Shown here: positions 33,372 through 61,435 of the stretch, one piece after another
Layout of the letters: each line of letters opens with the position of its first letter
Position numbering within the stretch: the stretch's first letter is position 1
Assembly: GCF_038593265.1 (NCBI RefSeq)
Contig: NZ_CP151979.1
Location: 2,611,001-2,675,000, forward strand
DNA: 64,000 nucleotides
Direction: 5' to 3'
DNA from: Ureibacillus sp. FSL W7-1570
GTDB taxonomy: Bacteria > Bacillota > Bacilli > Bacillales_A > Planococcaceae
The notes under the pieces: generated by a model
What the model saw: only the letters and a program-made list of their open reading frames with translations
Databases searched by the model: none
What the model was told of the DNA's origin: nothing
Translations under genes and position numbers: made by a program

Positions 33372-34910
33372 CAGACTGTCGACAAACCCCAACTCAAATG
33401 CTTCATTTGAGTTGGGATTTGTCTTTTTTTGCTCATCATTTTCTAAGATTCTTCTCTTATTTAGGCTGGACATGGTCTTTTCCATGTCCAGTTTGCCATT
33501 TTCTTTAAGTTCATGGCAGCGAAAGTAAGCATCGCCTGCATGGACAATTTTTCCAGTCCTCGTAGAGTTGTCCATCGCATGCCATGCTTCTCTTTTCCAT
33601 CGGCAAAGACCCGTTCAATCGTTTCTTTGCGCTTATCATATATATTTCTATTGATTTCTGTATGTCTTAAGTGGTCGACTTCTTCCACATAGTGCTCCCA
33701 AATGTGGCGATGAATAAATTTAGTGTGATCTTTACTTTGGGTACACTTTTCTAAAAATGGGCACGTTTTACATATTTCCGGTTTCGAAGCGTACTGTCGA
33801 TATCCTTCTCTTGTTGTTGTTCGGTATTCAAGAGTTTGGTTGTTTGGGCAGATGTAACAATCATAATGCTCATCGTATACATATTCATACTTTTTAAAGA
33901 AACCGTCCTTTGTTCTAGGCCTTGTATATGGCATGACTGGACGAATCTCTTTATCCAATAGACTTTTCGCATTCGCTGGGGTTTTGTATCCGGCATCTAC
34001 GGCTACTGCAGTTGGTTTGCCTACTTTTTCGATGACTTGTTCGAGTAATTGACCAAACACCTGACTATCATGAATATTCGCTCCCGTTACCTTGGTAGCT
34101 AAGACAAAGCCTTTTGCATCACAGGCGGTATGAAAAGAATAGGCAAACATCTTTTCCCGTTCATCTTTTACGTAATAGCCACTATCAGGATCGGTTGTAC
34201 TGACCTTTATTTCCTTGGTTTCTTCCTTCTCTTTCGGGGGAAAGGGCTTTTTTCCATGGTTTTCACGGTCTTGGTTAATCTCTAACTCTAATTGCGCTTG
34301 ATAGCTTTTTGTTTCTGCCCGGACAATTTTCTTATCGAACTTCTTTTTATTGGCGCTCGCTTTGACATGTGTTGAATCAATAAAGGCAACAGATGCATCC
34401 ACTAATCCTTTATTCATCGCTTCTTTTAAAATACGATAAAAAATCTGTTCAAATAAATCAGTACCTTGAAAACGACGAACATAATTCTTGCCGAACGTTG
34501 AAAAATGAGGAATTTTCTCTGTGAAACCATATCCTAAGAACCATCGATACGCCACGTTGGTTTCAATTTCTTTGATCGTTTGACGCATGGATCGAATACC
34601 AAATAAATACTGCACAAAGACCATTTTAATGAGCACAACAGGATCAATACTAGGCCTTCCGTTATCTAGGCAATAGGTATCTTTGACAAGATCGTAAATA
34701 AAATCAAAGTCTATGGCTTGTTCAATCTTCCTTACCAAATGATTTTCTGGAACCAATTGATCAAGAGCCACCATTTCCAATTGATTTCGATTATTGTCAG
34801 TACGCTTCGATAACATCCTAAATTTCCCCCGTTAACCAAGAATTCTATCCCTATTATACAAAAAAAGCCTGTAGATTTGGCCCCTAGTTAGGGACTTTGT
34901 CTACAAGCTG
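33372..34910 (-). mobile_element. IS1182-family insertion sequence flanked by duplicated palindrome
   Basis: A 1539-bp element. Its imperfect terminal repeats begin CAGACTGTCGACAAA at the left and CAGCTTGTAGACAAA (complement) at the right. The 28-bp target duplication is a complete terminator palindrome. Stem-loops lie just inside both ends: 33388-33416 (AACTCAAATG with CATTTGAGTT, T run on the plus strand) and 34868-34907 (TGTAGA/CCC with GGG/TCTACA, T run on the minus strand). Each is oriented to stop transcription coming in from its own side. Confidence 0.93.
33461..34816 (-). CDS. IS1182-family transposase (451 aa)
   Basis: A DDE transposase, shorter than and clearly different from the one at 2 kb. 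The N-terminal DUF772 part contains FVQYLFGIRSMRQTIKEIE. Catalytic Asp residues lie in VAFIDSTHVKASANK (about 145-158) and TAVAVDAGYKTPAN (about 269-282). A Cys cluster reads CKTCPFLEKC, and the C-terminal block KETIERVFADGKEKHGM carries the Glu. Both catalytic parts and the frame are intact, so it may be active. The fresh, exact target duplication agrees with recent movement. Confidence 0.93.
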   Translation of the reverse strand: MLSKRTDNNRNQLEMVALDQLVPENHLVRKIEQAIDFDFIYDLVKDTYCLDNGRPSIDPVVLIKMVFVQYLFGIRSMRQTIKEIETNVAYRWFLGYGFTEKIPHFSTFGKNYVRRFQGTDLFEQIFYRILKEAMNKGLVDASVAFIDSTHVKASANKKKFDKKIVRAETKSYQAQLELEINQDRENHGKKPFPPKEKEETKEIKVSTTDPDSGYYVKDEREKMFAYSFHTACDAKGFVLATKVTGANIHDSQVFGQLLEQVIEKVGKPTAVAVDAGYKTPANAKSLLDKEIRPVMPYTRPRTKDGFFKKYEYVYDEHYDCYICPNNQTLEYRTTTREGYRQYASKPEICKTCPFLEKCTQSKDHTKFIHRHIWEHYVEEVDHLRHTEINRNIYDKRKETIERVFADGKEKHGMRWTTLRGLEKLSMQAMLTFAAMNLKKMANWTWKRPCPA

Positions 34911-35281: not shown

Positions 35282-35572
35282 TCATCCCTCCGCTTTTCTG
35301 TTCATTTTTTCCATCATTTTTTTATGCATTTTTTTGGGAGGTATTTCCGCTATTTTGAATAAATCGCTTTGAAAAAATTCATGCAGCGAAATACCGCAAC
35401 CTTGGCAATACTTCGTTATTGTATCAATCTTAGGATGCTTTGATCTTCCTTGAAGGATTTCTGAAATGGTGGATTGTCTCAGACCACCCAGTTTGCCGAT
35501 TTCTGCTGGTGTTTTGCCCCGTTCTTCCGCAAGTTCTTTCATCCGTAAGGCCAGAGCTGTATGTATATCCAA
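35282..35572 (-). CDS. XRE-family helix-turn-helix regulator
   Basis: About 96 aa. The HTH reads MKELAEERGKTPAEIGKLGGLRQSTISEILQGRSKHPKIDTITKYCQ, a standard XRE domain over about residues 10-60. The C-terminal tail is basic (PPKKMHKKMMEKMNRK). I start it at TTG 35572 because GGAAGGAGG lies ten bases upstream, inside the longer open frame. It is divergent from a second XRE gene, with a 340-base AT-rich region between them. The layout suggests paired control of the secretion operon. Confidence 0.82.
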   Translation of the reverse strand: MDIHTALALRMKELAEERGKTPAEIGKLGGLRQSTISEILQGRSKHPKIDTITKYCQGCGISLHEFFQSDLFKIAEIPPKKMHKKMMEKMNRKAEG

Positions 35573-35913
35573 TGATGCCGATCCTCCTTCCTTCAATGAA
35601 ATCTTTTTCTCCCCAACACTGTATTTTTATCCACTCTTTAGAATGACAGCTTTTTTGAAACTAATATAACTATACATATTTCAAAATCCACATTCCAGCG
35701 AAACGAATCAAAGAAAATATAAAGAAAAAGATAAATTTTGCACAAATCGGTGCTTTTTGACTAATGGACCAATTTTTTTAGGAATTATGGATAAATTGAC
35801 TAATAACAAAACTTTGTTAAAATTTAAATGCCAATTAATATTGAATATTCAATAAATTTTTAAATATTCATTGTTGTGCGGGATATCGTAACTAATAAAT
35901 GGTGGTGAAATGT
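35573..35913. other. Divergent promoter region between two XRE regulators
   Basis: About 340 AT-rich bases with several TAAAAT- and TATAAC-like boxes. I could not fix individual promoters or operators by eye. Confidence 0.45.
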
Positions 35914-36387
35914 TTGTTACTCGGAGATTGGATGAAACGGGAACGGGAAAAGCGCAATATCACACAGTTGGAAGTGGCGGAATCCGTTGGTGTTTCGCAA
36001 GCAAAAATTAGTTTCTGGGAAAATAATAAAACACTGCCTTCTGTTTACGATCTATATAAATTTTCTTGTCTGATCGGTTTAACTTCTTTGGGAGAGATCC
36101 CCTTCGACAAAATAGACTTTGATAAAGGTGAGAGAGTAATGGAAAGAATGAGTTTATATGAGTTGCCTGCAAATGATTCGATAAGAACTTTTGAAGGTAA
36201 AACATATGAACTTAAAGGCTTCGTGGGTATCGAAAAGGAAACGGGCGAAATTGAAAAAGTGACAGAGTTATATTATCGGGCAAGAACCGTTGTAAAAAAC
36301 AATCATGTGATTGCAAAGCGCAAGAATGAAACAGATGAATTAAAAAAAGTGAAACCTAAAAAAATCAAAGTGAAAGCAAATGTATAA
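35914..36387 (+). CDS. XRE-family regulator with C-terminal extension, upstream of the T4SS operon
   Basis: About 157 aa if started at TTG 35914, six bases after GGTGGTG; ATG 35932 is an alternative. The HTH is WMKREREKRNITQLEVAESVGVSQAKISFWENNKTLP (about 6-42). The rest contains a small beta-rich segment (RTFEGKTYELKGFVGIEKETGEIEKVTELYYRAR) and a very basic tail (KKVKPKKIKVK). It lies 34 bases before the large structured segment and is co-oriented with the secretion genes, so it is a candidate regulator or antiterminator partner for them (inference). Confidence 0.8.
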   Translation: MLLGDWMKREREKRNITQLEVAESVGVSQAKISFWENNKTLPSVYDLYKFSCLIGLTSLGEIPFDKIDFDKGERVMERMSLYELPANDSIRTFEGKTYELKGFVGIEKETGEIEKVTELYYRARTVVKNNHVIAKRKNETDELKKVKPKKIKVKANV

Positions 36388-36420
36388 ATAGATAAATATA
36401 AACTTAACCATTTGGGGCCG

Positions 36421-36677
36421 ACAACACACTCAATAAGGACGGTTATTAAAAAAACAATTGAATAACGATGTGTCTGTTGCCTGGTAGTCGGGCAGACGGA
36501 TATACATAAGTGAAGGTTCAACAAGTGACTCCTAAAACTTGTTCATGAAAAAGGCTACATGGATAGTTCTGTGTTATCTAAAAACACTGTGCATTGCAGC
36601 TATATGCTGCATAGAGTTTGTGAGTGAACGGCTATAAACTCACCGAATCCCCAAACTGTCCTTATTGAGTGTGTTGT
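36421..36677 (+). ncRNA. Candidate structured leader RNA of the secretion operon, closed by a 24-bp stem
   Basis: ACAACACACTCAATAAGGAC (36421-36440) pairs perfectly with 36658-36677; GGTT with AACT adds four pairs including one G-U. The 210 enclosed bases carry several hairpins: GTCTG with CAGAC (36472-36497), AACAAG with CTTGTT (36520-36543), GTGTT with AACAC (36571-36587), GCAGC with GCTGC (36596-36610), and GAGTTT with AAACTC (36614-36641). No coding frame is present. It lies between a regulator gene and the pilin gene. Alternative: a MITE-like element with 24-bp inverted ends. Confidence 0.55.
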
Positions 36678-36774
36678 GGGGGGCTCTTTTGCGGAATTTT
36701 TGAGAATCAGTTCAAGTGGAAATCAGGATGTGAACGATCGAATCGGCACCTTGGAGTAAAAGGGAGGGAAATGA

Positions 36775-37002
36775 ATGGAGAGTTTAATCGCTACGGGACA
36801 AGCCTTTCTTGAATGGCTGCAAATGCCTGCCGTTATAGCGACTGCCATTGCATTTTGTATCGGCGGATATTATTTGATTTTCGGAGGGGAACAAGGCCGT
36901 CAAAAAGCCGTCAAATGGTTTATTGGCGGGGTGGTCGGTTTAATTGTTGTTTTAGGCGCATATTCTCTTGCGAATTCGATCAGTTCAAATATTAAATTTT
37001 AA
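36775..37002 (+). CDS. VirB2/TrbC-like pilin subunit
   Basis: A 75-aa protein with two hydrophobic helices (about 17-35 and 46-66) separated by a short basic loop (GGEQGRQKAVKW). This is the size and layout of VirB2/TrbC-type pilins of type IV secretion systems. GGGAGG lies seven bases before ATG 36775. It is the first gene of the operon. Two terminator-like hairpins follow it, which would make its transcript the most abundant. There is no obvious signal peptide. Confidence 0.72.
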   Translation: MESLIATGQAFLEWLQMPAVIATAIAFCIGGYYLIFGGEQGRQKAVKWFIGGVVGLIVVLGAYSLANSISSNIKF

Positions 37003-37010
37003 GATTTCAG

Positions 37011-37050
37011 AGCTACTCTAAAAATCATTGGGAAGAGTAGCTTTTATTGT
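37011..37050 (+). terminator. Terminator-like hairpin after the pilin gene
   Basis: AGCTACTC, 16-base loop, GAGTAGCT, then TTTATTGTTT. It lies 9 bases after the pilin stop, inside the operon. Confidence 0.75.
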
Positions 37051-37078
37051 TTGCGGGATATCATCATCGATAAATATG

Positions 37079-37117
37079 TTTAAGCCATCTATGCATGCGG
37101 GATGGCTTAAATTTTTG
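37079..37117 (+). terminator. Second terminator-like hairpin before the next operon gene
   Basis: TTTAAGCCATC pairs exactly with GATGGCTTAAA (11 bp), followed by five T. It ends 16 bases before the next start codon. Confidence 0.8.
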
Positions 37118-37132
37118 GAAAGGAGATTACAG

Positions 37133-38251
37133 ATGAAGGTAATTTTTTACAACGTTCCAAATTCAAAAATAAAGAATTTCGAACTCATGTCATTCGCTGA
37201 AGCGGTCAAATTGAGCCATAAAATTGAACACGAATGCCGCAAAGAAAAGGAGCAATTCACCAGCGAATTTCAAGTCTTGGGGGATAACAACAAAGTTTAT
37301 TATAGAGGAACATTTGAATTTGGTTCTTATGAATTTCCGAATATATATCACAAAATCAAAAATATGGCCAACCGCATTAAGGTGGATAAACAATTTCAGG
37401 CCGATAAGCTGTATCTGTTAGATCAAATCGAGAAGTTGACACCGGAGAAATACAAAAAGGAAGAAAAGGTAGATAAATTCCTCGCCAAAGTGGATAAAAG
37501 TCAAATTTCAAAATTAAAAGGATGGCAGCGTAAAAGCGTTTATGCAATTGCCGTATTGGGTCTGACAGGATCTTTAGTGACAGGATTTACATACGTGGTT
37601 CAAAAAGACAACTATGAAAAAGCCCTCGCAGACAGCGGCGAAGAATTGAAACAATCGCAGGAATTAATAGCGATATATGAGAGTGCTTTAATGGGCGACA
37701 AAAACGAAATGTTTGCCAAACTTGAACAATTAGATAAGAAGAAGCTGACGGATAATCAAGTGCAAATTTTATTTCTTGAATATATAAACAATAACAAATT
37801 CCAAAAAGCGGTTGAGTTATTTGATGGAGATCATATTCAGGCTGAAACAATGATCATGAGTTCAACGCTTCCAAAGAAAACAAAAAGGGAAAAAATAGCG
37901 GCATTTAACGAAATTTATCCCACAAATGAGGCAAGATATGATTTGGCTTATTTGGACGGGGACTGGAAACTGATGCTGAACATCCAAAATGTAAGAATGA
38001 ATGTGAAACGCTCCGAAATGAAAACTTATGCATTATTGAAACTTGGAAAAATAGATGAGGCGAAACTGGAATTAAACAATAACAATAGTGATGAATTATC
38101 TAAAAAGATTACGAAATATGAGGTTATCACTGCTGAAATTAAAACATTGGAAGAAAAATATAAAGTCATGGTGAATGAGCGGAAAATTAATGAAGCGAAC
38201 CAACTGGCCAAACAAATTACAGATAAAAGAAAAGAATTGCAAAGTTTATAA
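37133..38251 (+). CDS. Single-pass membrane protein of the T4SS operon
   Basis: A 372-aa protein. The N-terminal 130 residues are soluble and probably cytoplasmic; one membrane helix spans about 135-156; the remaining 215 residues are helical and presumably outside, with TPR-like stretches (YALLKLGKIDEAKLELNNN). The layout is like EssB/YukC of type VII systems, but I see no sequence match and do not claim one. AAAGGAG precedes ATG 37133; the longer frame upstream overlaps a terminator. It is probably a structural part of the secretion channel. Confidence 0.7.
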   Translation: MKVIFYNVPNSKIKNFELMSFAEAVKLSHKIEHECRKEKEQFTSEFQVLGDNNKVYYRGTFEFGSYEFPNIYHKIKNMANRIKVDKQFQADKLYLLDQIEKLTPEKYKKEEKVDKFLAKVDKSQISKLKGWQRKSVYAIAVLGLTGSLVTGFTYVVQKDNYEKALADSGEELKQSQELIAIYESALMGDKNEMFAKLEQLDKKKLTDNQVQILFLEYINNNKFQKAVELFDGDHIQAETMIMSSTLPKKTKREKIAAFNEIYPTNEARYDLAYLDGDWKLMLNIQNVRMNVKRSEMKTYALLKLGKIDEAKLELNNNNSDELSKKITKYEVITAEIKTLEEKYKVMVNERKINEANQLAKQITDKRKELQSL

Positions 38252-40310: not shown

Positions 40311-40354
40311 AAAGAAAGGTAGTGTTGCCATTTAAAATACTACTTTTCTTTTTT
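40311..40354 (+). terminator. Intrinsic terminator inside the T4SS operon
   Basis: A 13-bp stem with one G-U pair (40311-40323 with 40339-40351) followed by a T run. It separates the VirB6-like gene from the VirB3-like gene, although four of the genes beyond it need transcription from upstream. Confidence 0.8.
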
Positions 40355-40368
40355 AACGGGGTGTGATT

Positions 40369-40662
40369 ATGCGCATTTATCGGATTCCTAGGGAAATTTC
40401 CAGTGAATTGAAAATTACGAAATTCATTTATTTGTTCGATTTACTTTTTATTGTCGGATTAATTTTATTCAGAGCAATCACCATCGAATATGTACACAGT
40501 GATTTAAAAGTCTGGTACACGGTTTTCTTGGTGCTGTTTGGCATATTTATGATTATTCGACCGAAAAGCAATCCGAACAAACGGATGTTTCATGCGATAT
40601 ATTATGCGATTGTGCGAAAAAAAAATACTTATTGTGCAATCGATCATTCTGAAAGTGAGTGA
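40369..40662 (+). CDS. VirB3-like small membrane protein (DUF5592/PrgI type)
   Basis: A 97-aa protein with two membrane helices (about 21-38 and 48-65) and a basic tail (PKSNPNKRMFHAIYYAIVRKKNTY). The start motif RIYRIPREISSELK and the KSNPNK block are typical of the VirB3/PrgI-like proteins that stand just before VirB4 in Gram-positive conjugation clusters. ATG 40369 follows GGGGTG; an upstream GTG overlaps that site. Confidence 0.72.
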   Translation: MRIYRIPREISSELKITKFIYLFDLLFIVGLILFRAITIEYVHSDLKVWYTVFLVLFGIFMIIRPKSNPNKRMFHAIYYAIVRKKNTYCAIDHSESE

Positions 40663-40667: not shown

Positions 40668-41303
40668 ATGGTATTTTTAGATGAAAAAAAGACGAAGCAG
40701 AAAAGTTCGCAAAACGGTTTTGCGATTCTTGATGAGAACAACGTCATTTCCGAAAAACAGGAGAAACAGAAAAAAACGGCCGTTAAATCTTCTTTCGCAG
40801 AAATCTGTCCAATTATTGATATCACCAACAATGATTTTTTCGAAATGAGGAGCGGCGAATATCTGGAAATTGTTCAAATCGAATCGAAGGACATTTACTC
40901 GCTTAATGAAACAGATTTGCAGAATGATATTAATACCTTGGCCATATTTTACGCCACCTATATTGACGATCTGAAAATCGTCCCGTTGGATGTGCCTTTG
41001 AGTTTGGAACGGCAAAAAGCCTATATTGCCCAACGAATGAGAAACAATAAAAATCCGGCCTACGAAACTTTTTTAAAAGCGAGAATGAAAGAATTGGAAA
41101 ACCTTGAAAAATACCGTACGAACCGGGAGTACTTCTTATTTCTTTATTCTGACGATGAAAAGAAGTTATTGGAAAAGGTACAGCGGGTGAAAAGTTTGTT
41201 AAGCCGAAGCAATCCGGTGATTGGGATTCCTTTGGAGAAAAAGACCAATATTCTATTCCAATTGTTTAACCCTAACACAAAACCGTTGAACGAAAATGAA
41301 TAA
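40668..41303 (+). CDS. VirB4 N-terminal-domain-like protein
   Basis: A 211-aa protein, soluble. Residues about 45-200 (ICPIIDITNNDFFEMRSGEYLEIVQIESKDIYSLNETD) look like the N-terminal domain of VirB4/TrbE ATPases, which is normally fused to the motor domain. There is no Walker motif here. It starts five bases after the VirB3-like gene ends and is followed 15 bases later by the VirB4-like ATPase. A docking subunit for that ATPase is the likely role. Confidence 0.68.
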   Translation: MVFLDEKKTKQKSSQNGFAILDENNVISEKQEKQKKTAVKSSFAEICPIIDITNNDFFEMRSGEYLEIVQIESKDIYSLNETDLQNDINTLAIFYATYIDDLKIVPLDVPLSLERQKAYIAQRMRNNKNPAYETFLKARMKELENLEKYRTNREYFLFLYSDDEKKLLEKVQRVKSLLSRSNPVIGIPLEKKTNILFQLFNPNTKPLNENE

Positions 41304-41318
41304 GGGGGCAGGAAGGGC

Positions 41319-43283
41319 ATGGATCTGATTGAAAAATTGCAACGTATCATCCGAAAGAAATCCGACGAAGAAGTAAAAGTTGAAAAAGGCTACAACCCCA
41401 ATCTGGTTGCGGCGATACAGCCACAAGGCGGGATTAAATTTGAACCGAATTATATACGTTTGGGAGACGGGTACATAACGTGTTTGCATGTCTATAAATA
41501 TCAAAGCATCGTACAAGATTATTGGTTGGAACCCATTTTAAACATGCCCAATGTCATTGCCACAATTGATATTGCCAATGCCAATAAACATGAAGTGGTT
41601 GAAAAAATCAATCGTGCGATGGCCGAGCAGAACGCCCGTTTTTACAACGCCAAAGAAAATATTGAGCGCATTGATGCACGAAATCTGTATCAGGAATTGG
41701 ATCAGCTTTACAATGACATAGCGCTCGGGGAAATTGTCAAATGTATTCATCTCCGTTTATACGTGAAAGGCAAAACTTTGGAAGAATTGGAGATTAATAC
41801 ACGCAGAGTAATGGAAGAATTGGAAGCGATGAATTTCCGTTCCGCTGTTTTTCTAAATGAACAGGAATGGGAATGGGAAAGTATGTTTACGAGCTATCAT
41901 ACACAATTGAAATATGTCAATAAACGAAAAGGAAAAGAAATTTCCGCTACCACATTGGCTGGAGGATATCCTTTCCACTACACCGCTTTGCACGATCCGA
42001 ATGGCACTTATCTAGGCACAACCTATACTGGAGGAACCGTGCTGTTCGATCTTTTCCATAAAGACAAACAAAGGAAGCATTATAATGCTTTAATGGTCGG
42101 CGTGATGGGAAGTGGGAAGTCGACATTGTTGAAAAAAATGGTTCTTGAACAGGCGATACGCGGAAACAAAGTTCGCATCCTCGATATAACCGGTGAATTC
42201 AGCGAGTTGGTGGAAGCCCTTGGTGGAAAACAGATTGCATTGGACGGTTCGGAAGGGATCATTAACCCTCTGCATGTATATAAAACAGCGGTCAATGATG
42301 ATGGCAGCACGAATGAAGAACTGTCTTTCATGCAGCATCTATCCAAGTTGAAAGTTTTTTATAATTATCTGAAGCCGACAGCGACCGACGATGAAAAGTC
42401 GATGTTTTCTTCTCTATTATTAAAGTTATATATTCGAAAGGGTTTGTGGTCGGAAAAGAAAGTATTGCCGATTACAACCTTCAAAGCACATGAATATCCA
42501 ACTTTCAGCGAGTTCCTTCAGTTAATCCGGGATGAACTTTACGAGGACTTTCCAAACAGAATCATCAAACAAAATTTGTCGGAAAGCAATGTGGCCATAT
42601 TAAGCAGTATCGAGTTGACGATAAAAAATCTGATTGAAATTTATAGTCAAATTTTCGATGGACATTCATCCATCCGGTCCTTTGATGATGAACTGATTGT
42701 GTCGTTTCCTTTGCGTTCATTGTTATCATTGCAAGGGGAGATTTTCCAGGCGCAATTGTTCAATATCATGAACACCCTATGGGATGGGATGATTGTCAAC
42801 GGATCCAACCAATTCAGAAAGTTCAATCACGGGGAATTGACGGTGGAAGATGCTGTCAAATACCTCATTATTATGGACGAAGCGCATAACATCATCAACA
42901 CAAGGGATATTTCAAAGCCGGCCGTCCAATATATTGAACGGTTTATGCGTGAAGCCAGAAAATACTTCGGAGGCATATTCTTTGTAAGCCATTCGATTAA
43001 TGACTTCGTGCCGAACTATGATGGGAAAATTACCAATGACAACGCTGAAAATATTAAAAAATTGTTCCAACTTACCCAATACAAATTTATCGCGCAACAG
43101 GATGCCATTACTTTGCCGATCATCAAATCCATTTTTGAAGGTCAGATAACCGATTCTGAATTGCAGCTAATTCCTAGGTTCGAAACGGGCCACTTAATCC
43201 TTTCCATTTCCGGGGTTAAAAATATAACGTTTAAAGTCGAAATTCCGCCTAATGAATTAACTTTATTCGGTGGTGGCGCATAA
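41319..43283 (+). CDS. VirB4-like conjugative transfer ATPase
   Basis: A 654-aa ATPase that powers assembly and substrate transport of type IV secretion systems. Walker A is GVMGSGKST at about 261-269. Walker B is YLIIMDEAHNI at about 513-523. Downstream motifs ERFMREARKYFGGIFFVSHS and FKFIAQQDA fit the VirB4 motor domain. The stop overlaps the next start (TAATG). No second ATPase of VirD4 or VirB11 type occurs in the island. Confidence 0.93.
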   Translation: MDLIEKLQRIIRKKSDEEVKVEKGYNPNLVAAIQPQGGIKFEPNYIRLGDGYITCLHVYKYQSIVQDYWLEPILNMPNVIATIDIANANKHEVVEKINRAMAEQNARFYNAKENIERIDARNLYQELDQLYNDIALGEIVKCIHLRLYVKGKTLEELEINTRRVMEELEAMNFRSAVFLNEQEWEWESMFTSYHTQLKYVNKRKGKEISATTLAGGYPFHYTALHDPNGTYLGTTYTGGTVLFDLFHKDKQRKHYNALMVGVMGSGKSTLLKKMVLEQAIRGNKVRILDITGEFSELVEALGGKQIALDGSEGIINPLHVYKTAVNDDGSTNEELSFMQHLSKLKVFYNYLKPTATDDEKSMFSSLLLKLYIRKGLWSEKKVLPITTFKAHEYPTFSEFLQLIRDELYEDFPNRIIKQNLSESNVAILSSIELTIKNLIEIYSQIFDGHSSIRSFDDELIVSFPLRSLLSLQGEIFQAQLFNIMNTLWDGMIVNGSNQFRKFNHGELTVEDAVKYLIIMDEAHNIINTRDISKPAVQYIERFMREARKYFGGIFFVSHSINDFVPNYDGKITNDNAENIKKLFQLTQYKFIAQQDAITLPIIKSIFEGQITDSELQLIPRFETGHLILSISGVKNITFKVEIPPNELTLFGGGA

Positions 43284-44398
43284 TGGTAAAAGTCATAAAT
43301 GCCACTGCCGCTGTCGGAAAAAAATCTGTAAAAAACCGAATCAAAGAAAAATATAGAGTTCTTACGGTCAGAAAGAAAATCATCCTTTGGAGCATTGCGA
43401 TCATTGCTTTGCTCTTTTTTATTATCATGATCGGCATCATCGGGGCCATACAAGGTGTTTTAAAGACAGGGGAAAATGTGGAAATGTCGGCTTTTGGTAC
43501 GGCTCAAGTATCGCCGGAAGTTGAACGGTATCGGGAACAAATCGCTTCCGAATTATCCAAATTTGAGCTTGAACAATATACAGATTTATTGCTTGCTTTA
43601 ATGATGCAGGAGAGTGGAGGAAGAGGCAATGATCCGATGCAGGCAAGTGAATCAAAATGCGGGCGAATCGGATGTATCAAGAACCCGGACGAAAGTATTG
43701 TGTATGGTGTAAAACACTTCGTCAATGTTTTGCAAAAGGCGAATTACGATGTAAAATTGACGCTTCAAAGCTATAACTTCGGAAGCGGATTTATTGACTA
43801 TGTGATGGCCAATGGAGGAGCGTACACAAAGGAATTGGCGATTGAGTATTCGCAAAAAATGTATCAAAAGTTCAAAAACACCGGGTTGTATAAATGCCAT
43901 AGACCTGCCGCCATTCAATATCAAGCTTGCTATGGGGACATTGAATATGTGGATGCCGTATTGAGATACTTGCCTTCTGCGATGATGGGCAATTCAGCCA
44001 CACTTTCAAACGGTTTCTCCTCTCCATTGAAACGGTCGTTGGAAATCACTTCACCTTATGGATGGCGCACTTTGGACGGGGTAAGAGAGTTTCATTTGGG
44101 AGTGGATTTGAGTTGCAATGAATCGAATACAGTCCATGCCGTTCAGGATGGTGTAGTGGTTTATGCAGGCGTAAGAGGCACGTACGGAAACCTGGTTCAA
44201 ATCCAGCATGGCAATTTCATCAGCGCTTACGCCCATTTAAGTAAAATCAATGTAAAAAACGGCCAAAGTGTTTCAAGCGGGCAATCAATCGGTGCTTGCG
44301 GAAAAACCGGACGTGCTACGGGTACTCACTTGCATTTTGAACTCAAGACGGAAATGTGGGGTGGCCAATTTGACCCAACACCATTTTTATTCAAATAA
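43283..44398 (+). CDS. Bifunctional cell-wall hydrolase of the T4SS (lysozyme-like plus M23)
   Basis: A 371-aa protein. A membrane anchor lies at about 33-55. A lysozyme/transglycosylase-like domain follows (about 80-190; the catalytic Glu in LMMQESGGRGNDPMQ, and LTLQSYNFG). An M23 endopeptidase domain occupies about 245-371 with HLGVDL (His, Asp), YAHLS and HLHFE. Such VirB1/CwlT-type enzymes open peptidoglycan for the secretion channel. Both active sites look intact. It is translationally coupled to the VirB4-like gene. Confidence 0.92.
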   Translation: MVKVINATAAVGKKSVKNRIKEKYRVLTVRKKIILWSIAIIALLFFIIMIGIIGAIQGVLKTGENVEMSAFGTAQVSPEVERYREQIASELSKFELEQYTDLLLALMMQESGGRGNDPMQASESKCGRIGCIKNPDESIVYGVKHFVNVLQKANYDVKLTLQSYNFGSGFIDYVMANGGAYTKELAIEYSQKMYQKFKNTGLYKCHRPAAIQYQACYGDIEYVDAVLRYLPSAMMGNSATLSNGFSSPLKRSLEITSPYGWRTLDGVREFHLGVDLSCNESNTVHAVQDGVVVYAGVRGTYGNLVQIQHGNFISAYAHLSKINVKNGQSVSSGQSIGACGKTGRATGTHLHFELKTEMWGGQFDPTPFLFK

Positions 44399-44413: not shown

Positions 44414-45043
44414 ATGCAAGCCAAATATCTCAGCATAATGGTGACGCTTGGTATTGTCCTTGTCCTTTCTCTTTCGGGAAACATCTACTCTTTTAAGAAA
44501 TTGGCAAACAACGAATCGGAAATACATGAAAGATACGCGAAATTGCTGGAAGAAAAAGAAAAGGAAATCTCGGATTTGCAGCAGGAAATCCTTGCTTTGG
44601 AGAATCAACCGGATATACAAAATGGGGAAAATACAAAGAAAAGTGATAATGGGGGATATTCATCCGGTAACCAGTCGACTGAAAACTTAAAGAATACAGC
44701 GCGGAGATTTATAGAATACACCTATAACGTGAATTCGGAAAACTATGTGACCGCCAAACAAAACGCTTCACATTATATGACCGATGAACTGACCGAAACC
44801 CTTTTTCCCAGCGATGGCTTGGACGAATCCCAATTCAAATCCACCACGAAAGTGAGCAACATTCATGTGTATTTAAACAGCGAAGATGATAAAAAAGTGA
44901 TTGTCAGTTATGATTTGAAAATCGATTATAAGAATGGCTATGTGGAGAAAAGAAATGACTTTGTTTTACTTCACATGGTTGAAACTGGCGGAATTTATAA
45001 AGTGAAAGGGATAGAGCCCATCAATAATATAGGAGGTGTTTGA
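44414..45043 (+). CDS. VirB8-like membrane-anchored protein
   Basis: A 209-aa protein. The N-terminal membrane helix spans about 5-25; a short coiled coil follows at about 30-65; then comes an NTF2-like domain (about 95-205; ARRFIEYTYNVNSENY, VIVSYDLKIDYKNGYVEKRNDFVLL). This order is that of VirB8/TcpC-type channel components. It overlaps or abuts the next gene within a few bases. Assignment is based on architecture and context. Confidence 0.68.
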   Translation: MQAKYLSIMVTLGIVLVLSLSGNIYSFKKLANNESEIHERYAKLLEEKEKEISDLQQEILALENQPDIQNGENTKKSDNGGYSSGNQSTENLKNTARRFIEYTYNVNSENYVTAKQNASHYMTDELTETLFPSDGLDESQFKSTTKVSNIHVYLNSEDDKKVIVSYDLKIDYKNGYVEKRNDFVLLHMVETGGIYKVKGIEPINNIGGV

Positions 45044-45048
45044 CCGGA

Positions 45049-45903
45049 ATGAAGAAGAAAAAGAGGAAAAATTTGACTACCCAATGGTCCAATTTATATA
45101 TCGTCATCACCCTTTTCTTTATTGTAGGATTTGCGTTTTTTTTAACAAGCAAAGTGTTCATTGCGGATGAATTGGACATTTTGAATACGGAAATCGGGAA
45201 AGAACATAATCTCAATTCGAACGGCAAATTCATCATCAAAGATTGGGTTTATGATGAAAAAAACCATAAAATGCAAGTCACTTTAATTACATCGAATATG
45301 AGAAGTTACTTATCCGAATTGAACTTCAGGGCTGTGGCGAGAGTGAACTTGGACAAGGAATTGCCGACGGAAGTGGTTTATTCCAGCAATGATATTTACA
45401 TCATTGACATTCATGAAGTGCCGAAAAACTTCCAACAAGTAGCGTTGCGTCTGGTGAAAAAAGATATTTTATTGGGCGAAGAATTCGAACAGGAATCAAC
45501 GGAAAATCATAATGAAGAAAAATTGATAACCAGCATTTATGCGGATGAAAGGGTGGTCAAAAGAGGTTCCATCACGGAAAGAAATGTTAAGGATTATGCC
45601 ATCCAGGTAACGGATGAAATGATTGAAGAAAGTAAAAAAGAAATTGAAGAATTGAACAATAAAATCAAAAATGAGAAGAGTGTAATCAATCGCATCAATG
45701 AGGAAATTGCCACATTAAAAAATGAAATTATTTATCAGACATTGGAAGAGCAGGAGCAGACAAACAACAGCATTTATAATATGGAAAAGGAAATCCAAAA
45801 ATCCAACAATACAATTGAAAATTTAGAGCTGGACATTAAATCGTTGGAAGCCAAAATAGAAAGGTTGGAACAACGGAAACGTGATTTGAAGTATTTTAAT
45901 TGA
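45049..45903 (+). CDS. Membrane-anchored coiled-coil protein, last gene of the T4SS operon
   Basis: About 284 aa. A basic start (KKKKRK) precedes one membrane helix at about 18-37. An outside beta-rich domain (about 55-145) is followed by a long coiled coil (about 180-284: IEESKKEIEELNNKIKNEKSVINRINEEIATL and onward). I prefer ATG 45049 to the TTG nine bases earlier, which is only three bases from AGGAGG. No family recognised. It could bridge the channel to the cell wall or the mating partner (inference). Confidence 0.7.
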   Translation: MKKKKRKNLTTQWSNLYIVITLFFIVGFAFFLTSKVFIADELDILNTEIGKEHNLNSNGKFIIKDWVYDEKNHKMQVTLITSNMRSYLSELNFRAVARVNLDKELPTEVVYSSNDIYIIDIHEVPKNFQQVALRLVKKDILLGEEFEQESTENHNEEKLITSIYADERVVKRGSITERNVKDYAIQVTDEMIEESKKEIEELNNKIKNEKSVINRINEEIATLKNEIIYQTLEEQEQTNNSIYNMEKEIQKSNNTIENLELDIKSLEAKIERLEQRKRDLKYFN

Positions 45904-45954
45904 TAGGTTTTTCTTAAGCATCAGGAAAGACCTGTTTTATGGAAATGGAAGAAT

Positions 45955-45990
45955 GCGCGGCCGGAAAGAAAAAGTCCGGCTGCGCTTTTT
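45955..45990 (+). terminator. Terminator of the T4SS operon, split by group II introns
   Basis: GCGCGGCCGGA pairs with TCCGGCTGCGC (one G-U) and is followed by five T. The first intron begins at the next base. The T tract resumes after the second intron (49762). Confidence 0.9.
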
Positions 45991-47875
45991 GTGCGCCCGG
46001 CATGTACATGAACTATAGGGTGTAAGTCCCGAACCCCGAAGACAGAAGTAGAGGTTAGCCAAGAGCAAGGGTGTCCGTGGTGACGCGGAATCTGAAGGAA
46101 GCTGGAGGCAAAACACCGGTCCGAGGAACACGAACCTCATATAAGGCTAGGTATGATTGAGTGAGTTTGCAAAACAAAACAAAGCTCTTTCTGTCGAAGG
46201 TCATATCGAGTAGATGAGGCGGATAGATGGTGTGAAAGTGCATGTACTTACCCGGGGAGGTCTGGCGGATAGGTGAAGTACGCTTCATAACCTACTTAGT
46301 GATAAGTAGCTGAACCGTCAGAAGTCAGCAGAGGTCATAGTATTAGTTGGTCTAGAACAACTAAGAAGGACCGAACAATTAAGAGAGAATAGCCCTTGGC
46401 ATTCAGTGAGTCATGATGAAAACAGAAAACGTAGTACCTCACTTGAGGAAGGAAGCGGTGAATCCCGTGGGGGACCTCTTGGAGGGTGGAGTGACCACTG
46501 GCATAAAGAGAACAGCTATTCACGGAAGGAGAATAACGATGCTTTTGAATCAAATCCTGTCACGGGAGAACATGCTTCAAGCACTAAAACGTGTAGAACA
46601 GAATAAAGGAAGCCACGGAGTAGATATGATGCCCGTACAAAACCTACGACAGCACATAGTCGAAAACTGGCTATCTATTAAGGAGGCAATTCTCAAGGGA
46701 ACTTATGAACCAATGCCAGTCCGCAGAGTCGAAATCCCGAAACCTGACGGCGGTGTTCGTTTACTAGGAATCCCTACCGTAACAGACCGTTTGATTCAAC
46801 AAGCAATCGCCCAAGTACTTTCAAAAGTGTATGACCCTACATTCTCTGAAAACAGCTACGGATTTAGACCAAACCGAAGTGCCCATGATGCGGTGAGGAA
46901 AGCGAAAGAATATATAAGAGATGGACATCGATGGGTTGTAGATATGGACTTGGAGAAATTCTTTGATAAGGTCAACCATGACAGATTAATGGGTACACTC
47001 GCGAAGAGAATCCAAGATAAACCATTACTGAAATTGATTCGTAAGTATTTACAATCGGGAGTCATGATTAATGGTGTGGTGTCAAGCACATTAGAAGGAA
47101 CTCCACAAGGAGGACCATTAAGTCCGCTACTATCTAACATTGTACTAGATGAACTAGATAAAGAATTGGAAAGAAGAGGACACAAATTCGTTCGATATGC
47201 GGATGACTGTAACATTTACGTGAAAAGTAAACGAGCAGGACTTCGCACAATGGCAAGCATTCAACGATTCATTGAAGGAAAACTACGACTGAAAGTAAAT
47301 GAAAAGAAATCAGCGGTCGACCGTCCATGGAAACGTAAGTTTCTAGGATTTAGCTTTACCTATCATAAAGAGCCAAAGGTTCGTATCGCAAAAGAAAGCC
47401 TTAAACGAATGAAGAATAAAGTTCGTGAAATCACATCACGCAAGATGCCCTACCCGATGGAATACCGCATTCAGAAACTGAATCAATATCTAATGGGATG
47501 GTGTGGATATTTTGCGTTAGCAGACACCAAATCTATATTCCTTGAATTAGATAAATGGATTCGTAGAAGACTTCGAATGTGTCTATGGAAGAACTGGAAG
47601 AAACCGAAAACAAAGATACGCAACCTTATTCAACTTGGCGTACCACAATGGCAAGCGTATGAATGGGGAAATACTCGGAAGAGTTATTGGCGTATTTCAA
47701 ATAGTCCAATATTACACAGAACCCTTGGTAACTCCTATTGGAGAAACCAAGGGCTGAAAAGTCTTGAAGCTCGTTATGAAAACTTGCGTCAATGATCTTA
47801 ATTGAACCGCCGTATACGGAACCGTACGTACGGTGGTGTGAGAGGACGGGAGTTAATCGCTCCCTCCTACTCGAT
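45991..47875 (+). mobile_element. Group IIC intron with intact reverse transcriptase, copy 1
   Basis: The 1885-base intron begins GTGCGCCCGG and ends in a domain V/VI region: GAACCGCCGTATACGG with CCGTACGTACGGTGG, then the DVI stem GGGAG/CTCCC with a bulged A-like TTAAT segment, and CTACTCGAT at the 3' end. Insertion directly after a terminator stem and T run is the known target choice of class C introns. The internal protein is of the GsI-IIC kind. It is followed after one base by an identical copy. Confidence 0.92.
46539..47795 (+). CDS. ltrA: Group II intron reverse transcriptase/maturase, copy 1
   Basis: A 418-aa protein started at ATG 46539 (MLLNQILSRENM) after AAGGAG; an upstream frame reaching 46413 translates intron RNA domains. 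RT blocks are VEIPKPDGGVRLLGIPTV, YGFRPNRSAHDAV, VVDMDLEKFFDKVNHD, GTPQGGPLSPLLSNI and the catalytic RYADDCNIYV. The maturase domain X follows (PWKRKFLGFSFTY, LNQYLMGWCGYF). There is no HNH endonuclease, as usual for class C. It closely resembles the thermostable Geobacillus GsI-IIC RT as I remember it. Apparently functional. Confidence 0.96.
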   Translation: MLLNQILSRENMLQALKRVEQNKGSHGVDMMPVQNLRQHIVENWLSIKEAILKGTYEPMPVRRVEIPKPDGGVRLLGIPTVTDRLIQQAIAQVLSKVYDPTFSENSYGFRPNRSAHDAVRKAKEYIRDGHRWVVDMDLEKFFDKVNHDRLMGTLAKRIQDKPLLKLIRKYLQSGVMINGVVSSTLEGTPQGGPLSPLLSNIVLDELDKELERRGHKFVRYADDCNIYVKSKRAGLRTMASIQRFIEGKLRLKVNEKKSAVDRPWKRKFLGFSFTYHKEPKVRIAKESLKRMKNKVREITSRKMPYPMEYRIQKLNQYLMGWCGYFALADTKSIFLELDKWIRRRLRMCLWKNWKKPKTKIRNLIQLGVPQWQAYEWGNTRKSYWRISNSPILHRTLGNSYWRNQGLKSLEARYENLRQ

Positions 47876-47876
47876 T

Positions 47877-49761
47877 GTGCGCCCGGCATGTACATGAACT
47901 ATAGGGTGTAAGTCCCGAACCCCGAAGACAGAAGTAGAGGTTAGCCAAGAGCAAGGGTGTCCGTGGTGACGCGGAATCTGAAGGAAGCTGGAGGCAAAAC
48001 ACCGGTCCGAGGAACACGAACCTCATATAAGGCTAGGTATGATTGAGTGAGTTTGCAAAACAAAACAAAGCTCTTTCTGTCGAAGGTCATATCGAGTAGA
48101 TGAGGCGGATAGATGGTGTGAAAGTGCATGTACTTACCCGGGGAGGTCTGGCGGATAGGTGAAGTACGCTTCATAACCTACTTAGTGATAAGTAGCTGAA
48201 CCGTCAGAAGTCAGCAGAGGTCATAGTATTAGTTGGTCTAGAACAACTAAGAAGGACCGAACAATTAAGAGAGAATAGCCCTTGGCATTCAGTGAGTCAT
48301 GATGAAAACAGAAAACGTAGTACCTCACTTGAGGAAGGAAGCGGTGAATCCCGTGGGGGACCTCTTGGAGGGTGGAGTGACCACTGGCATAAAGAGAACA
48401 GCTATTCACGGAAGGAGAATAACGATGCTTTTGAATCAAATCCTGTCACGGGAGAACATGCTTCAAGCACTAAAACGTGTAGAACAGAATAAAGGAAGCC
48501 ACGGAGTAGATATGATGCCCGTACAAAACCTACGACAGCACATAGTCGAAAACTGGCTATCTATTAAGGAGGCAATTCTCAAGGGAACTTATGAACCAAT
48601 GCCAGTCCGCAGAGTCGAAATCCCGAAACCTGACGGCGGTGTTCGTTTACTAGGAATCCCTACCGTAACAGACCGTTTGATTCAACAAGCAATCGCCCAA
48701 GTACTTTCAAAAGTGTATGACCCTACATTCTCTGAAAACAGCTACGGATTTAGACCAAACCGAAGTGCCCATGATGCGGTGAGGAAAGCGAAAGAATATA
48801 TAAGAGATGGACATCGATGGGTTGTAGATATGGACTTGGAGAAATTCTTTGATAAGGTCAACCATGACAGATTAATGGGTACACTCGCGAAGAGAATCCA
48901 AGATAAACCATTACTGAAATTGATTCGTAAGTATTTACAATCGGGAGTCATGATTAATGGTGTGGTGTCAAGCACATTAGAAGGAACTCCACAAGGAGGA
49001 CCATTAAGTCCGCTACTATCTAACATTGTACTAGATGAACTAGATAAAGAATTGGAAAGAAGAGGACACAAATTCGTTCGATATGCGGATGACTGTAACA
49101 TTTACGTGAAAAGTAAACGAGCAGGACTTCGCACAATGGCAAGCATTCAACGATTCATTGAAGGAAAACTACGACTGAAAGTAAATGAAAAGAAATCAGC
49201 GGTCGACCGTCCATGGAAACGTAAGTTTCTAGGATTTAGCTTTACCTATCATAAAGAGCCAAAGGTTCGTATCGCAAAAGAAAGCCTTAAACGAATGAAG
49301 AATAAAGTTCGTGAAATCACATCACGCAAGATGCCCTACCCGATGGAATACCGCATTCAGAAACTGAATCAATATCTAATGGGATGGTGTGGATATTTTG
49401 CGTTAGCAGACACCAAATCTATATTCCTTGAATTAGATAAATGGATTCGTAGAAGACTTCGAATGTGTCTATGGAAGAACTGGAAGAAACCGAAAACAAA
49501 GATACGCAACCTTATTCAACTTGGCGTACCACAATGGCAAGCGTATGAATGGGGAAATACTCGGAAGAGTTATTGGCGTATTTCAAATAGTCCAATATTA
49601 CACAGAACCCTTGGTAACTCCTATTGGAGAAACCAAGGGCTGAAAAGTCTTGAAGCTCGTTATGAAAACTTGCGTCAATGATCTTAATTGAACCGCCGTA
49701 TACGGAACCGTACGTACGGTGGTGTGAGAGGACGGGAGTTAATCGCTCCCTCCTACTCGAT
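47877..49761 (+). mobile_element. Group IIC intron, copy 2 (identical tandem copy)
   Basis: It begins one base after copy 1 ends and has the same 1885-base length. The period between copies is exactly 1886 bases, and no difference was seen in the portions compared. Its 3' end (CTACTCGAT) joins the remainder of the T tract of the T4SS terminator. Confidence 0.92.
48425..49681 (+). CDS. ltrA: Group II intron reverse transcriptase/maturase, copy 2
   Basis: Amino-acid identical to the RT in copy 1 over all 418 residues, with the same AAGGAG site and RYADD catalytic motif. Two intact identical RT genes 1886 bases apart imply a very recent duplication or ongoing homogenisation by recombination. 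Either could supply RT in trans to the ORF-less copy at 58.5 kb. Confidence 0.95.
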   Translation: MLLNQILSRENMLQALKRVEQNKGSHGVDMMPVQNLRQHIVENWLSIKEAILKGTYEPMPVRRVEIPKPDGGVRLLGIPTVTDRLIQQAIAQVLSKVYDPTFSENSYGFRPNRSAHDAVRKAKEYIRDGHRWVVDMDLEKFFDKVNHDRLMGTLAKRIQDKPLLKLIRKYLQSGVMINGVVSSTLEGTPQGGPLSPLLSNIVLDELDKELERRGHKFVRYADDCNIYVKSKRAGLRTMASIQRFIEGKLRLKVNEKKSAVDRPWKRKFLGFSFTYHKEPKVRIAKESLKRMKNKVREITSRKMPYPMEYRIQKLNQYLMGWCGYFALADTKSIFLELDKWIRRRLRMCLWKNWKKPKTKIRNLIQLGVPQWQAYEWGNTRKSYWRISNSPILHRTLGNSYWRNQGLKSLEARYENLRQ

Positions 49762-50212
49762 TTTTTACAAACTTGGATAAGTAAAAGTCCGGCTTCATTA
49801 TTGGCCTCAAGCAAGCATCCTCTTTTGCAACCCCTCTTACGTTCCATGCTTATTCCCCATAAGTCTTCTTAAATCTCTTCACGCATGCCAAGGGATCGTT
49901 TTTGCAATCAGCAGAGCGGACATGCAGGAAGATGGGCAAAGCCGCCGTCAGATCCCCCTTTTTTGATGTGTGATAAAGTTATCTTCATCGAACAAAAATG
50001 AAGAAGTGTTTAAACTTCTCCAACTTTTTTAATAGAGCTGCTATCAACCAAAATATACCAGTAAACGGCCTGTTTTCGTGTTAAAATTATATTTACATCT
50101 ATACATAAAAATGAAGTGGGAATCTTAAGGATTTCTTAAGATTTTCAACCCCAATTTTGTAAGAAACATATTTTATGATTAAACTGTAAGAAAAAGAGAT
50201 GAGGTGGTACGG
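49762..50212. other. Gene-free stretch between intron copy 2 and the two-component operon
   Basis: It starts with the rest of the interrupted T tract. Short frames on the minus strand run into intron sequence and are not convincing. The last 120 bases presumably hold the response-regulator promoter. This is the right edge of the secretion island; I see no attachment-site repeat matching the left edge. Confidence 0.5.
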
Positions 50213-53252: not shown

Positions 53253-53330
53253 GTTTAAGAGTTTGATGATGAAAGGGAGCAAATGGGGAAATTCTCCGTT
53301 TGCTCTTTCTTTTAATTTGTGTGGATATTT

Positions 53331-53690
53331 GTATTAATTGGTGCGGAAAGTACGTGATTTGGTGAGGATCAGCATCTAATTGGTGTGGATAACACCCGAT
53401 TTGGTGAGGATCAGCATCTAATTGGTGTGGATAACACCCGATTTGGTGCGGATACAGCATTAATTGGTGTGGATAACACCCGATTTGGTGCGGATACAGC
53501 ATTAATTGGTGTGGATAACACCCGATTTGGTGCGGATGCAGCCTCTATTGGTGTGGATAACGCCCGATTTGGTGCGGATGCAGCATTAATTGGTGTGGAT
53601 AACGCCCGATTTGGTGCGGGTGCAGCCTCCATTGGTGTGGATAATACTTGATTTGGTGCGGATGCAGCCTCAATCAGTTCAGTCAACTTC
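53331..53690 (+). repeat. Degenerate 42-bp tandem repeat built of two related 21-bp halves
   Basis: The unit starts ATTGGTGTGGATAACACCCG and continues ATTTGGTGCGGATACAGCATTA. The halves share ATTNGGTGNGGATA. About eight 42-bp units are visible, older ones at the ends with more changes. Because 42 and 21 are multiples of three, long frames stay open on both strands (a 14-residue repeat IGVDNTRFGADTAL on one), but they lack ribosome binding sites. It lies 80 bases after the kinase gene. Confidence 0.85.
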
Positions 53691-53934
53691 CTTCCATTTT
53701 GAACGGTCATCCTCATTTAGTGGAACTTCGCTTATTCAATTTTCGAACGGAAATTTCAGGAAAATCCTATTCTTTTTTGATGGCATATTTTACTTTAACC
53801 GAAAATAGTGTATAAAGAGTGATAGATATGTTGCAACCAAATGAATAATAGAACGTTTTTATGGTGATAGACATTTTGGGAAGTATCGTGTATTGTAGAT
53901 TGAGTGATAAAGAGTGTAAGGGGAATAATGGTTT

Positions 53935-58470: not shown

Positions 58471-58505
58471 AAAACGTGAAGCGATGCGGCTTCACGTTTT
58501 TTTTA
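58471..58505 (+). terminator. Terminator of the lysine operon and intron target
   Basis: AAAACGTGAAGC pairs with GCTTCACGTTTT, then TTTTA, then the intron begins. Confidence 0.92.
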
Positions 58506-59145: not shown

Positions 59146-59229
59146 TTGCAGAAACAAAATTTACAAAGAATGTAACAAAAAAGAAGTTCAGTAGTCTAAT
59201 CAAGTAAAGGGAGAAAGGAGTGAAAACGT

Positions 59230-61362: not shown

Positions 61363-61367
61363 GGATG

Positions 61368-61404
61368 AAATCTGCTCTTGTTGTTGCAAGGGCAGATTTT
61401 TTGT
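61368..61404 (+). terminator. Terminator after the beta-propeller gene
   Basis: AAATCTGC and CTTG pair with CAAG and GCAGATTT, followed by a T run. Confidence 0.9.
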
Positions 61405-61435
61405 TATATATGGGGATTTATGCACCGTATGTGCT

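Follow-up and report, generated by a model that had tools for sequence, protein, structure and literature searches.

What is the structured segment of 257 bases between a regulator gene and a pilin gene in the chromosome of Ureibacillus sp. FSL W7-1570, and what does it do for the operon that follows? The window analysed here is the whole 64,000-nucleotide stretch NZ_CP151979.1, positions 2,611,001 to 2,675,000, and positions below are counted from its first letter unless another record is named. A sequence-only reading had proposed a large structured RNA of no recognised class at the head of a type IV secretion (T4SS) operon, perhaps a protein-plus-RNA antitermination leader like conAn of plasmid pLS20, or else a MITE with 24-bp inverted ends. 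The features of the locus are collected in Table 1.

Table 1. Features of the RNA element and the genes around it (window positions)
Feature	Position	Strand	Evidence
Divergent XRE/HTH_3 regulator, placed like Rco of pLS20	35282..35596	-	Pfam HTH_3 3.2e-9; 65.8% identity to P. maritimus plasmid XRE gene at matching place
Promoter-like TTGACT-16-TAAAAT with TG, 5′ of ConAn1-like gene	35796..35823	+	Consensus match only
HTH_3 domain fused to ConAn1-like domain (ORF)	35899..36387	+	Pfam HTH_3 5.6e-12; hhalign
conAn2-type structured RNA	36421..36677	+	Fold, covariation, R1 matches, G-U bias
P1 closing stem, 5′ strand	36421..36444	+	12/24 pairs changed both sides; 99.8% of cells paired (27 sequences)
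P1 closing stem, 3′ strand	36654..36677	+	Covariation alignment of 27 sequences
P2 hairpin	36469..36504	+	Fold; 4/9 pairs changed both sides
P3 module, AGG / stem / loop ending CCUAAAA / stem; candidate H-type pseudoknot	36514..36543	+	Stem 4/6 pairs changed both sides; GG/CC invariant; module scan
P5 module, UAG / stem / loop with CUAAAA / stem; candidate H-type pseudoknot	36564..36587	+	UAG/CUA middle pair C-G 19, A-U 8 of 27; module scan
P6 hairpin	36595..36611	+	6/6 pairs changed both sides
P7 module, AGAGUU-stem-AACnGCUAnAA-stem, common to pLS20-type RNA	36613..36643	+	Stem 3/5 pairs changed both sides
VirB2/TrbC-like pilin	36775..37002	+	T4SS_pilin 1.5e-5, TrbC 1.3e-4 (both below curated cut-offs); 74.7% identity to Planococcus pilin
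Second terminator-like hairpin 3′ of pilin	37007-37046
Terminator-like hairpin 3′ of pilin gene	37079..37111	+	-14.3 kcal/mol then TTTTT; matching position in two Planococcus operons
T4SS operon protein	37133..38251	+	54.6% identity to Planococcus 370-aa protein
pLS20_p028 family membrane protein, 553 aa vs Planococcus 939 aa	38645..40306	+	NF045890 2.3e-116, above cut-off
Terminator-like hairpin between p028 and DUF5592 genes	40313..40349	+	-14.7 kcal/mol then T-run; matching position in two Planococcus operons
DUF5592 protein, annotated in pLS20 too	40363..40662	+	PF17332 3.8e-30
VirB4 ATPase as two ORFs (40668-41303, 41319-43283), same in Planococcus	40668..43283	+	NF045975 1.1e-13 and 1.7e-85, both below curated cut-off
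Lysozyme-like + M23 peptidase	43283..44398	+	PF13702 1.5e-45, PF01551 3e-30
Two more T4SS operon genes (44414-45043, 45040-45903)	44414..45903	+	42% and 58% identity to Planococcus operon proteins
Terminator-like hairpin 3′ of last recognisable operon gene	45904..45934	+	Matching position in two Planococcus operons
Stronger hairpin past last operon gene	45955-45985

Structure and relatives of the RNA

The closing stem P1 stands as it had been drawn, with 24 contiguous pairs, one of them G-U, in both the sequence and the fold. The plus-strand MFE of the element, -92.6 kcal/mol, is lower than that of every one of 200 shuffles (-56.5, sd 4.6; z -7.85); the minus-strand fold of the same segment gives a z of -5.51. 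Six hairpins are predicted inside the closing stem, where at least five had been counted, and P2, P3, P5, P6, and P7 are kept in relatives. The plus strand within the element contains no ORF of at least 60 aa, in keeping with the earlier remark that it has no coding frame. At its gathering score Rfam 15 finds no match at the element, either in the window or in seven relatives, and at E ≤ 1 Rfam finds none in window 35600-37200 or in pLS20 2000-4600.

A DNA similarity search identified one plasmid, Planococcus maritimus pKRIBB-KS-1-3 (78.8% identity over 45% of a 501-base query), and among 261 genomes of the family two further genomes match (G095 and G114); in all three of these DNA-only finds a ConAn1-like protein gene adjoins the RNA. 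The P. maritimus RNA is flanked by an HTH gene, whose product is 50% identical to the 162-aa ORF of the window, and by a small gene plus the pilin gene, beyond which lie VirD4, a pLS20_p028 family protein, and others. Protein searches match 79 plasmid records, 22 of them at ≥80% query coverage, and 23 loci in a species-genome collection; most relatives were found in this way, and the linkage of protein and RNA is therefore partly by construction. Relatives in Planococcus, Domibacillus, and Exiguobacterium have the RNA between the ConAn1-like gene and the pilin gene, and a window-like pilin gene lies 3′ of the ConAn1-like gene in 37 of the 38 loci searched, the exception being a short-ended contig.

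The stretch 3′ of the ConAn1-like gene was examined in 46 regions, one of them a duplicate. In 40 of the 46, the top-scoring inverted repeat has a stem score of 21.2-32.3, with 23-29 positions, mismatched in some cases, and a span of 250-439 nt; the highest score among 300 shuffles, made from three other stretches, is 17.1. One locus, L075, scores 16.1 and is thus within the shuffle range, and five score ≤12.5: L045 and L015 of the Lysinibacillus type, B. arachidis, Marinococcus, and one short-ended contig. The L075 record, titled as a Stutzerimonas stutzeri plasmid, holds an Exiguobacterium-type ConAn1-like gene and RNA with the closing stem partly lost, and its title may mislabel a contaminant. 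In L045 (6481-6585) and L015 the HTH-ConAn1-like protein and the pilin are kept, and the ~105 nt between their genes hold a single module hairpin without a long closing stem, possibly a minimal form of the RNA.

The structure is conserved by compensatory change, as the sequence-only reading had asked of homologous loci. Alignment A4 comprises 27 of 28 window-type representatives, L075 being excluded, and RNAalifold recovers from it 59 pairs, 31 of them changed on both sides. In a 64-pair structure of 10 helices, including the candidate pseudoknot pairs and picked on the same 27 sequences, 99.2% of 1711 cells are paired (shuffles 89.3) and 32 pairs have changed on both sides (shuffles 17.7), a number reached by none of 500 shuffles. 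Cells changed on both sides total 162, compared with 37.4 in shuffles, although many of the A4 sequences are related Exiguobacterium and cells outnumber independent events; a slid control, in which partners are moved by 1-3 columns, leaves 37-45% paired. Across the 54 nested pairs we count 111 G-U cells at 22 pairs and three A-C cells at three pairs, and since G-U wobbles so far exceed A-C wobbles, the plus strand is the RNA, as the single G-U of the window stem had hinted. Judged from this alignment, the plus strand acts as RNA and its structure is under selection.

P3, P5, and P7 share a layout of a short strand, 2-5 bases, a stem, and then a loop in which the bases just ahead of an A-rich end can pair with the short strand, and pseudoknots are likely in all three from these patterns. 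In the middle pair of P5 nineteen sequences have C-G and eight have A-U, in effect one event, and the pseudoknot-pairing bases of P7 hardly vary. A module scan, devised after the sequences had been seen, finds three modules in seven of eight window-type RNAs and two in the eighth, with shuffle means of 0.3-0.63. Applied to 11 RNAs of other types, the scan gives zero to two, numbers reached by 1 to 60 of 60 shuffles and in several cases within chance.

For wider searches we used a covariance model, R1, which covers 130 positions from P3 to P7 and was built from window-type RNAs only, with no pLS20 data. Run with stricter filters over 398 genomes sampled from the phylum, R1 matches the own genome alone. 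Neither viral contigs searched with the pilin, the ConAn1-domain alignment, and two P7 patterns, nor phages searched by DNA, yielded relatives.

The ConAn1-like gene and the downstream operon

Placement of the RNA between an XRE-type regulator and a pilin gene needs amending on one side: the pilin is where it was said to be, and the gene directly upstream codes for an HTH domain fused to a ConAn1-like domain, with a second, divergent XRE gene further upstream, which we liken to Rco by its position. The fusion ORF probably starts at TTG 35914, by eye, and its ConAn1-like part (~36139-36384) is an 80-aa domain. Aligned as a family with hhalign, this domain matches pLS20-type ConAn1 with probability 98.2 and E 2.7e-14 over 68 columns, and one-to-one blastp of the window protein with pLS20 ConAn1 gives a weak match (E 0.002); by this profile comparison, the domain is homologous to pLS20 ConAn1. 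The pLS20 protein is itself 61% identical to the protein named ConAn1 in pBatNRS213, and pLS20 ORF28 is called ConAn1 in PMC11730352. In Priestia, Terribacillus, and B. arachidis the ConAn1-like domain is a separate small gene, directly preceded in Priestia and Terribacillus by an HTH gene. Promoter-like sites such as that 5′ of the fusion gene number 34 in the region, no more than in shuffles (41.0).

The RNA precedes the pilin and T4SS genes, as expected of the head of a type IV secretion operon; the operon is incomplete, however, without VirD4 or a relaxase. Comparison of 22 P. maritimus proteins with the window gives 12 collinear matches at 42-75% identity, p028 being matched over 431 of 939 residues, and no match for VirD4, MobP2, and eight others. 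P. maritimus genes beyond the 286-aa gene have no match within the window, and a search of the own genome, run without a positive control, did not find VirD4 or MobP2. VirB4 is present in one of 25 genus genomes, which is the own genome.

Terminator-like hairpins with loops ≤16 number eight sense and two antisense in the window operon, compared with 6/6 in P. maritimus, 13/4 in P. versutus, and 23/17 in pLS20, and a stricter scan with loops ≤8 finds 14 hairpins against 12.7 in shuffles, no excess. Such counts would prove little alone, and the weight rests on matching positions: the window, P. maritimus, and P. versutus all have a hairpin 3′ of the pilin gene, one separating p028 from DUF5592, and one past the 286-aa gene.

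From 45.98 kb onward there is a tandem of two identical group II introns, followed by a response regulator, a histidine kinase, and ordinary chromosomal genes (names by eye). The two intron units (45989-47876 and 47875-49762) are each 1888 bp, 100% identical, and arranged head-to-tail where the conjugation operon breaks off; a third copy, at 58500-59149, has no protein gene and is 90-96% identical to the other two. At the left edge of the conjugation remnant, ~0.5 kb away from the divergent XRE gene, there is an IS transposase gene (DDE_Tnp_1_6/DUF772, 33461-34816). Elsewhere in the window, 53221-53716 and 61279-61739 have repetitive reading frames on both strands, suggesting short-period repeats.

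Comparison with conAn of pLS20 and rival readings

We assumed the conAn2 of pLS20 to be the gap after ORF28. pLS20 has the same order as the window, and so has pBatNRS213, in the record of which ConAn1 and Rco are named: a repressor on the minus strand, ConAn1, a gap, and the next gene or operon. The gap 3′ of ConAn1 is 383 nt in pLS20 and 389 nt in pBatNRS213. Folded to a consensus, five pLS20-type gaps are closed by a stem of 25 pairs and have a P7-like 3′ hairpin. R1 matches the gap after ConAn1 in pLS20 (L040) at E 0.013 and four other pLS20-type loci at 8.5e-5 (L051), 1.9e-3 (L050), 4.2e-3 (L052), and 0.034 (L048), with a partial match at E 0.48 in the sixth (L049); scores in these loci are modest, at 10.5-23.5 bits, and the E-values are rough, the first off-site match coming at 0.32. 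By the same rough measure R1 matches Priestia loci L058, L046, L044, and L081 at E 3.5e-4 to 0.025 and L015, L045, and L057 at 0.054-0.18; L047 and L082 have no R1 match. The core common to window and pLS20 types reads AGAGUU-N1-2-GYGARU...AACnGCUAnAA-stem.

The two systems thus have in common an RNA of ~260-280 nt with a closing stem of ~25 pairs, lying between a ConAn1-domain gene and the conjugation operon and with a divergent repressor upstream, and the P7 motif close to the 3′ stem. They differ in that the window ConAn1-like domain has an HTH in place of the C-terminal half of the pLS20 protein; in that the window RNA has the A-rich-loop modules P3, P5, and P7, whereas pLS20 has P7 only (scan at the three-base setting); in the inner architecture outside P1 and P7; in sequence, the window RNA being 32-35% identical to the five pLS20-type RNAs; and in that the window operon is chromosomal and incomplete. 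Taking the features of conAn in turn, an RNA at the start of the conjugation operon is present here by position and structure, with a putative promoter; a ConAn1 gene beside it is present by domain homology; and homology of the RNA to pLS20 conAn2, so assigned, is indicated by R1, P7, and the closing stem. The recognisable operon is ~9 kb here and ~19.7 kb in P. maritimus, and conAn plasmids are reported to have operons longer than 30 kb (PMC8955417), a correlate rather than a mechanistic requirement. That source also describes conAn2 RNA as the antiterminator and ConAn1 as adding processivity, with only polymerases from the main promoter becoming loaded.

The element is probably a divergent conAn-type processive antitermination RNA, its activity being modelled on that of pLS20; we suggest such a mechanism because of the homologous protein domain, the shared RNA core, the gene order, and the terminator-like hairpins. 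A promoter lying 5′ of the HTH-ConAn1-like gene, and probably answering to the divergent XRE repressor, would give a single transcript running from the ConAn1-like protein through the RNA to the pilin and T4SS genes. The nascent RNA would fold behind RNA polymerase, the 24-bp stem closing the fold, and would bind the polymerase; the ConAn1-like protein would join and hold the RNA-polymerase complex together. Polymerase so modified would read through the hairpins after the pilin gene, p028, and the last T4SS gene, and stray transcripts would terminate there. Every step beyond structure and homology, including polymerase binding, antitermination, the role of the protein, and promoter control, we infer from pLS20.

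The RNA might instead be a self-sufficient antiterminator like EAR or Tn916 canT, with the HTH-ConAn1-like protein merely a regulator. Tn916 canT does act in cis without other genes of its element, according to PMC11658703, and in pLS20, according to PMC8955417, the RNA antiterminates and the protein adds processivity; we nonetheless think this unlikely, as the neighbouring domain is homologous to ConAn1, the three relatives found by DNA also carry the protein beside the RNA, an EAR-like RNA would have to reckon with the missing Rfam match, and a canT-like one with Tn916-like DNA in the pCF10 record (L087) that has no P7 match. A leader acting on pilin translation or on local attenuation, whether riboswitch-like or protein-bound, rather than as a processive antiterminator, is very unlikely. 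The large 5′ element ahead of a pilin gene would suit it, but the RNA ends 97 nt 5′ of the pilin start, annotated Planococcus and Exiguobacterium plasmids have another small gene separating the RNA from the pilin, so that the RNA is not tied to the pilin, and the matching hairpins far down the operon fit processive action.

A DNA feature, be it a MITE with inverted ends or an oriT/cruciform, has next to no probability left: such a feature would have a long inverted repeat, and the segment has one, but it is single-copy in the one-contig 3.28-Mb host genome, DNA-similar copies elsewhere sit at the same operon position, its wobbles are G-U rather than A-C, and the relaxase gene of the P. maritimus relative is ~14 kb away. 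The MITE that had been offered as the alternative, and the oriT/cruciform with it, we therefore rejected on copy number, position, and G-U bias. A question of present use rather than identity is whether the intact RNA is now a recent relic on a truncated operon, which is possible, if on balance doubtful. The unmatched VirD4, MobP2, and distal P. maritimus genes, the occurrence of VirB4 in a single genus genome, and the end of the operon at the tandem introns speak for a relic; against it, P1 is unbroken, the sequence fits the structure of the family, and the VirB4 ORF pair and the pilin ORF match those of Planococcus. On identity, the conAn-like protein-plus-RNA leader that the sequence-only reading had thought plausible emerges as the best-supported reading, given the compensatory changes, the single copy, and the ConAn1-homologous domain in the neighbour.

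Enterococcus pheromone plasmids and other known systems

In pCF10 (NC_006827) a 27-pair stem (9142-9168/9536-9562) lies directly 3′ of gene 8745-9125, for which the name PrgR is taken from other records, and a P7-like hairpin inside it (9473-9504) was seen by eye before the P7 pattern was written. An E. faecium plasmid (L088, 1981-2488) with a 40% identical PrgR has the same stem and hairpin. In pAM373 (NC_002630), fetched after the pattern was written, there is one P7 match in 36.7 kb on both strands, inside an unbroken 27-pair stem on the minus strand (33634-34033, plus coordinates); this RNA follows gene 34045-34356 and precedes a gene 63.7% identical to that following the pCF10 RNA. The 30 kb of pTEF1 scanned have no P7 match. 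Stem scores are 27.2 in pCF10, 32.2 in the E. faecium plasmid, and 31.3 in pAM373, and the highest among 100 shuffles of each are 16.4-17.1. MFE fold z values of the Enterococcus RNAs are only -3.4 and -3.9, which counts against a link with the window RNA. All 27 pairs hold in each stem; between pCF10 and E. faecium both bases differ in one pair and a single base in four, and between pCF10 and pAM373 in two and three, respectively, of 15 inner pairs. DNA like the pCF10 RNA occurs in 251 plasmid records and DNA like the pAM373 RNA in 52, all Enterococcus.

Over 91 sequences (736 kb, both strands), many of whose loci overlap, 31 of 32 matches to the P7 pattern, itself derived partly from the matched RNAs, are at such RNAs. 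The remaining match has a stem of three pairs, and the pattern misses most Exiguobacterium RNAs. Also counting against the link, annotated reading frames lie inside the pCF10 and pAM373 RNAs, at 9176-9397 in pCF10 and on the other strand at 33767-34024 in pAM373.

With hhalign we found no homology to ConAn1 in PrgR (probabilities 4.6 and 0.9), and the pAM373 protein 34471-34809 gives a probability of 0.3. The NCBIfam model TraE_Enteroc matches at E ≤ 5, below its cut-off, all six pLS20-type ConAn1 proteins (including L040 2564-3082) and eight of 13 window-type ConAn1 proteins, with best E values on ConAn1-type proteins of 3e-5 and 3.9e-4; it does not match the window's own domain or the three pCF10 and three pAM373 proteins tried. 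The TraE1 protein of pAD1 is a member of TraE_Enteroc. According to PMC7117660, TraE1 promotes transcription of conjugation genes, and antitermination is discussed there at IRS1, a different element; PMC8955417 names pCF10 among well-studied plasmids and in a reference.

The pCF10 prgR-prgS leader and its pAM373 counterpart thus resemble the window RNA in a long closing stem, here of 27 pairs, with a P7-like hairpin near its 3′ strand, and differ from it in being about 400-420 nt and, for pCF10, in escaping R1. Tentatively, and leaning slightly against the idea, we consider that one RNA superfamily, defined by a long closing stem and a P7 pseudoknot-like hairpin, may serve processive antitermination of conjugation operons in Bacillales and Enterococcus; the frame at the position of prgS would then be part of the RNA, and P3, P5, and P7 would be copies of a single H-type pseudoknot module of ~30 nt whose third loop is A-rich, down to one copy in Lysinibacillus-type operons. 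A 1992 paper on cis-acting positive control is cited to the pCF10 region with the RNA, and if the Enterococcus link holds, this pheromone-plasmid observation becomes testable.

Rfam holds EAR, the RNA of Bacillus eps operons, and has no match in the window at the RNA; neither EAR nor the HK022 put RNA is known to have a ConAn1-like partner. What both would have in common with the element is RNA-based processive antitermination (PMC8955417). Tn916 canT would resemble it as a cis-acting RNA antiterminator of a Gram-positive conjugative element (PMC11658703), and differs in lying between orf8 and xis, in needing no other Tn916 genes, and in the P7 match absent from the Tn916-like DNA considered above. 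The protein partner comes in two forms, fused to an HTH or encoded by a gene of its own next to the HTH one, which hints at how induction and processivity are linked. A 2021 paper reportedly described conAn and called it widespread; because conAn is already known, the element counts as a variant of conAn, with an HTH-fused partner, a different inner RNA architecture, and a covariation-backed structure. The conAn2-type RNA, which has no Rfam 15 match, thereby gains such a structure and a core motif that can be mutated.
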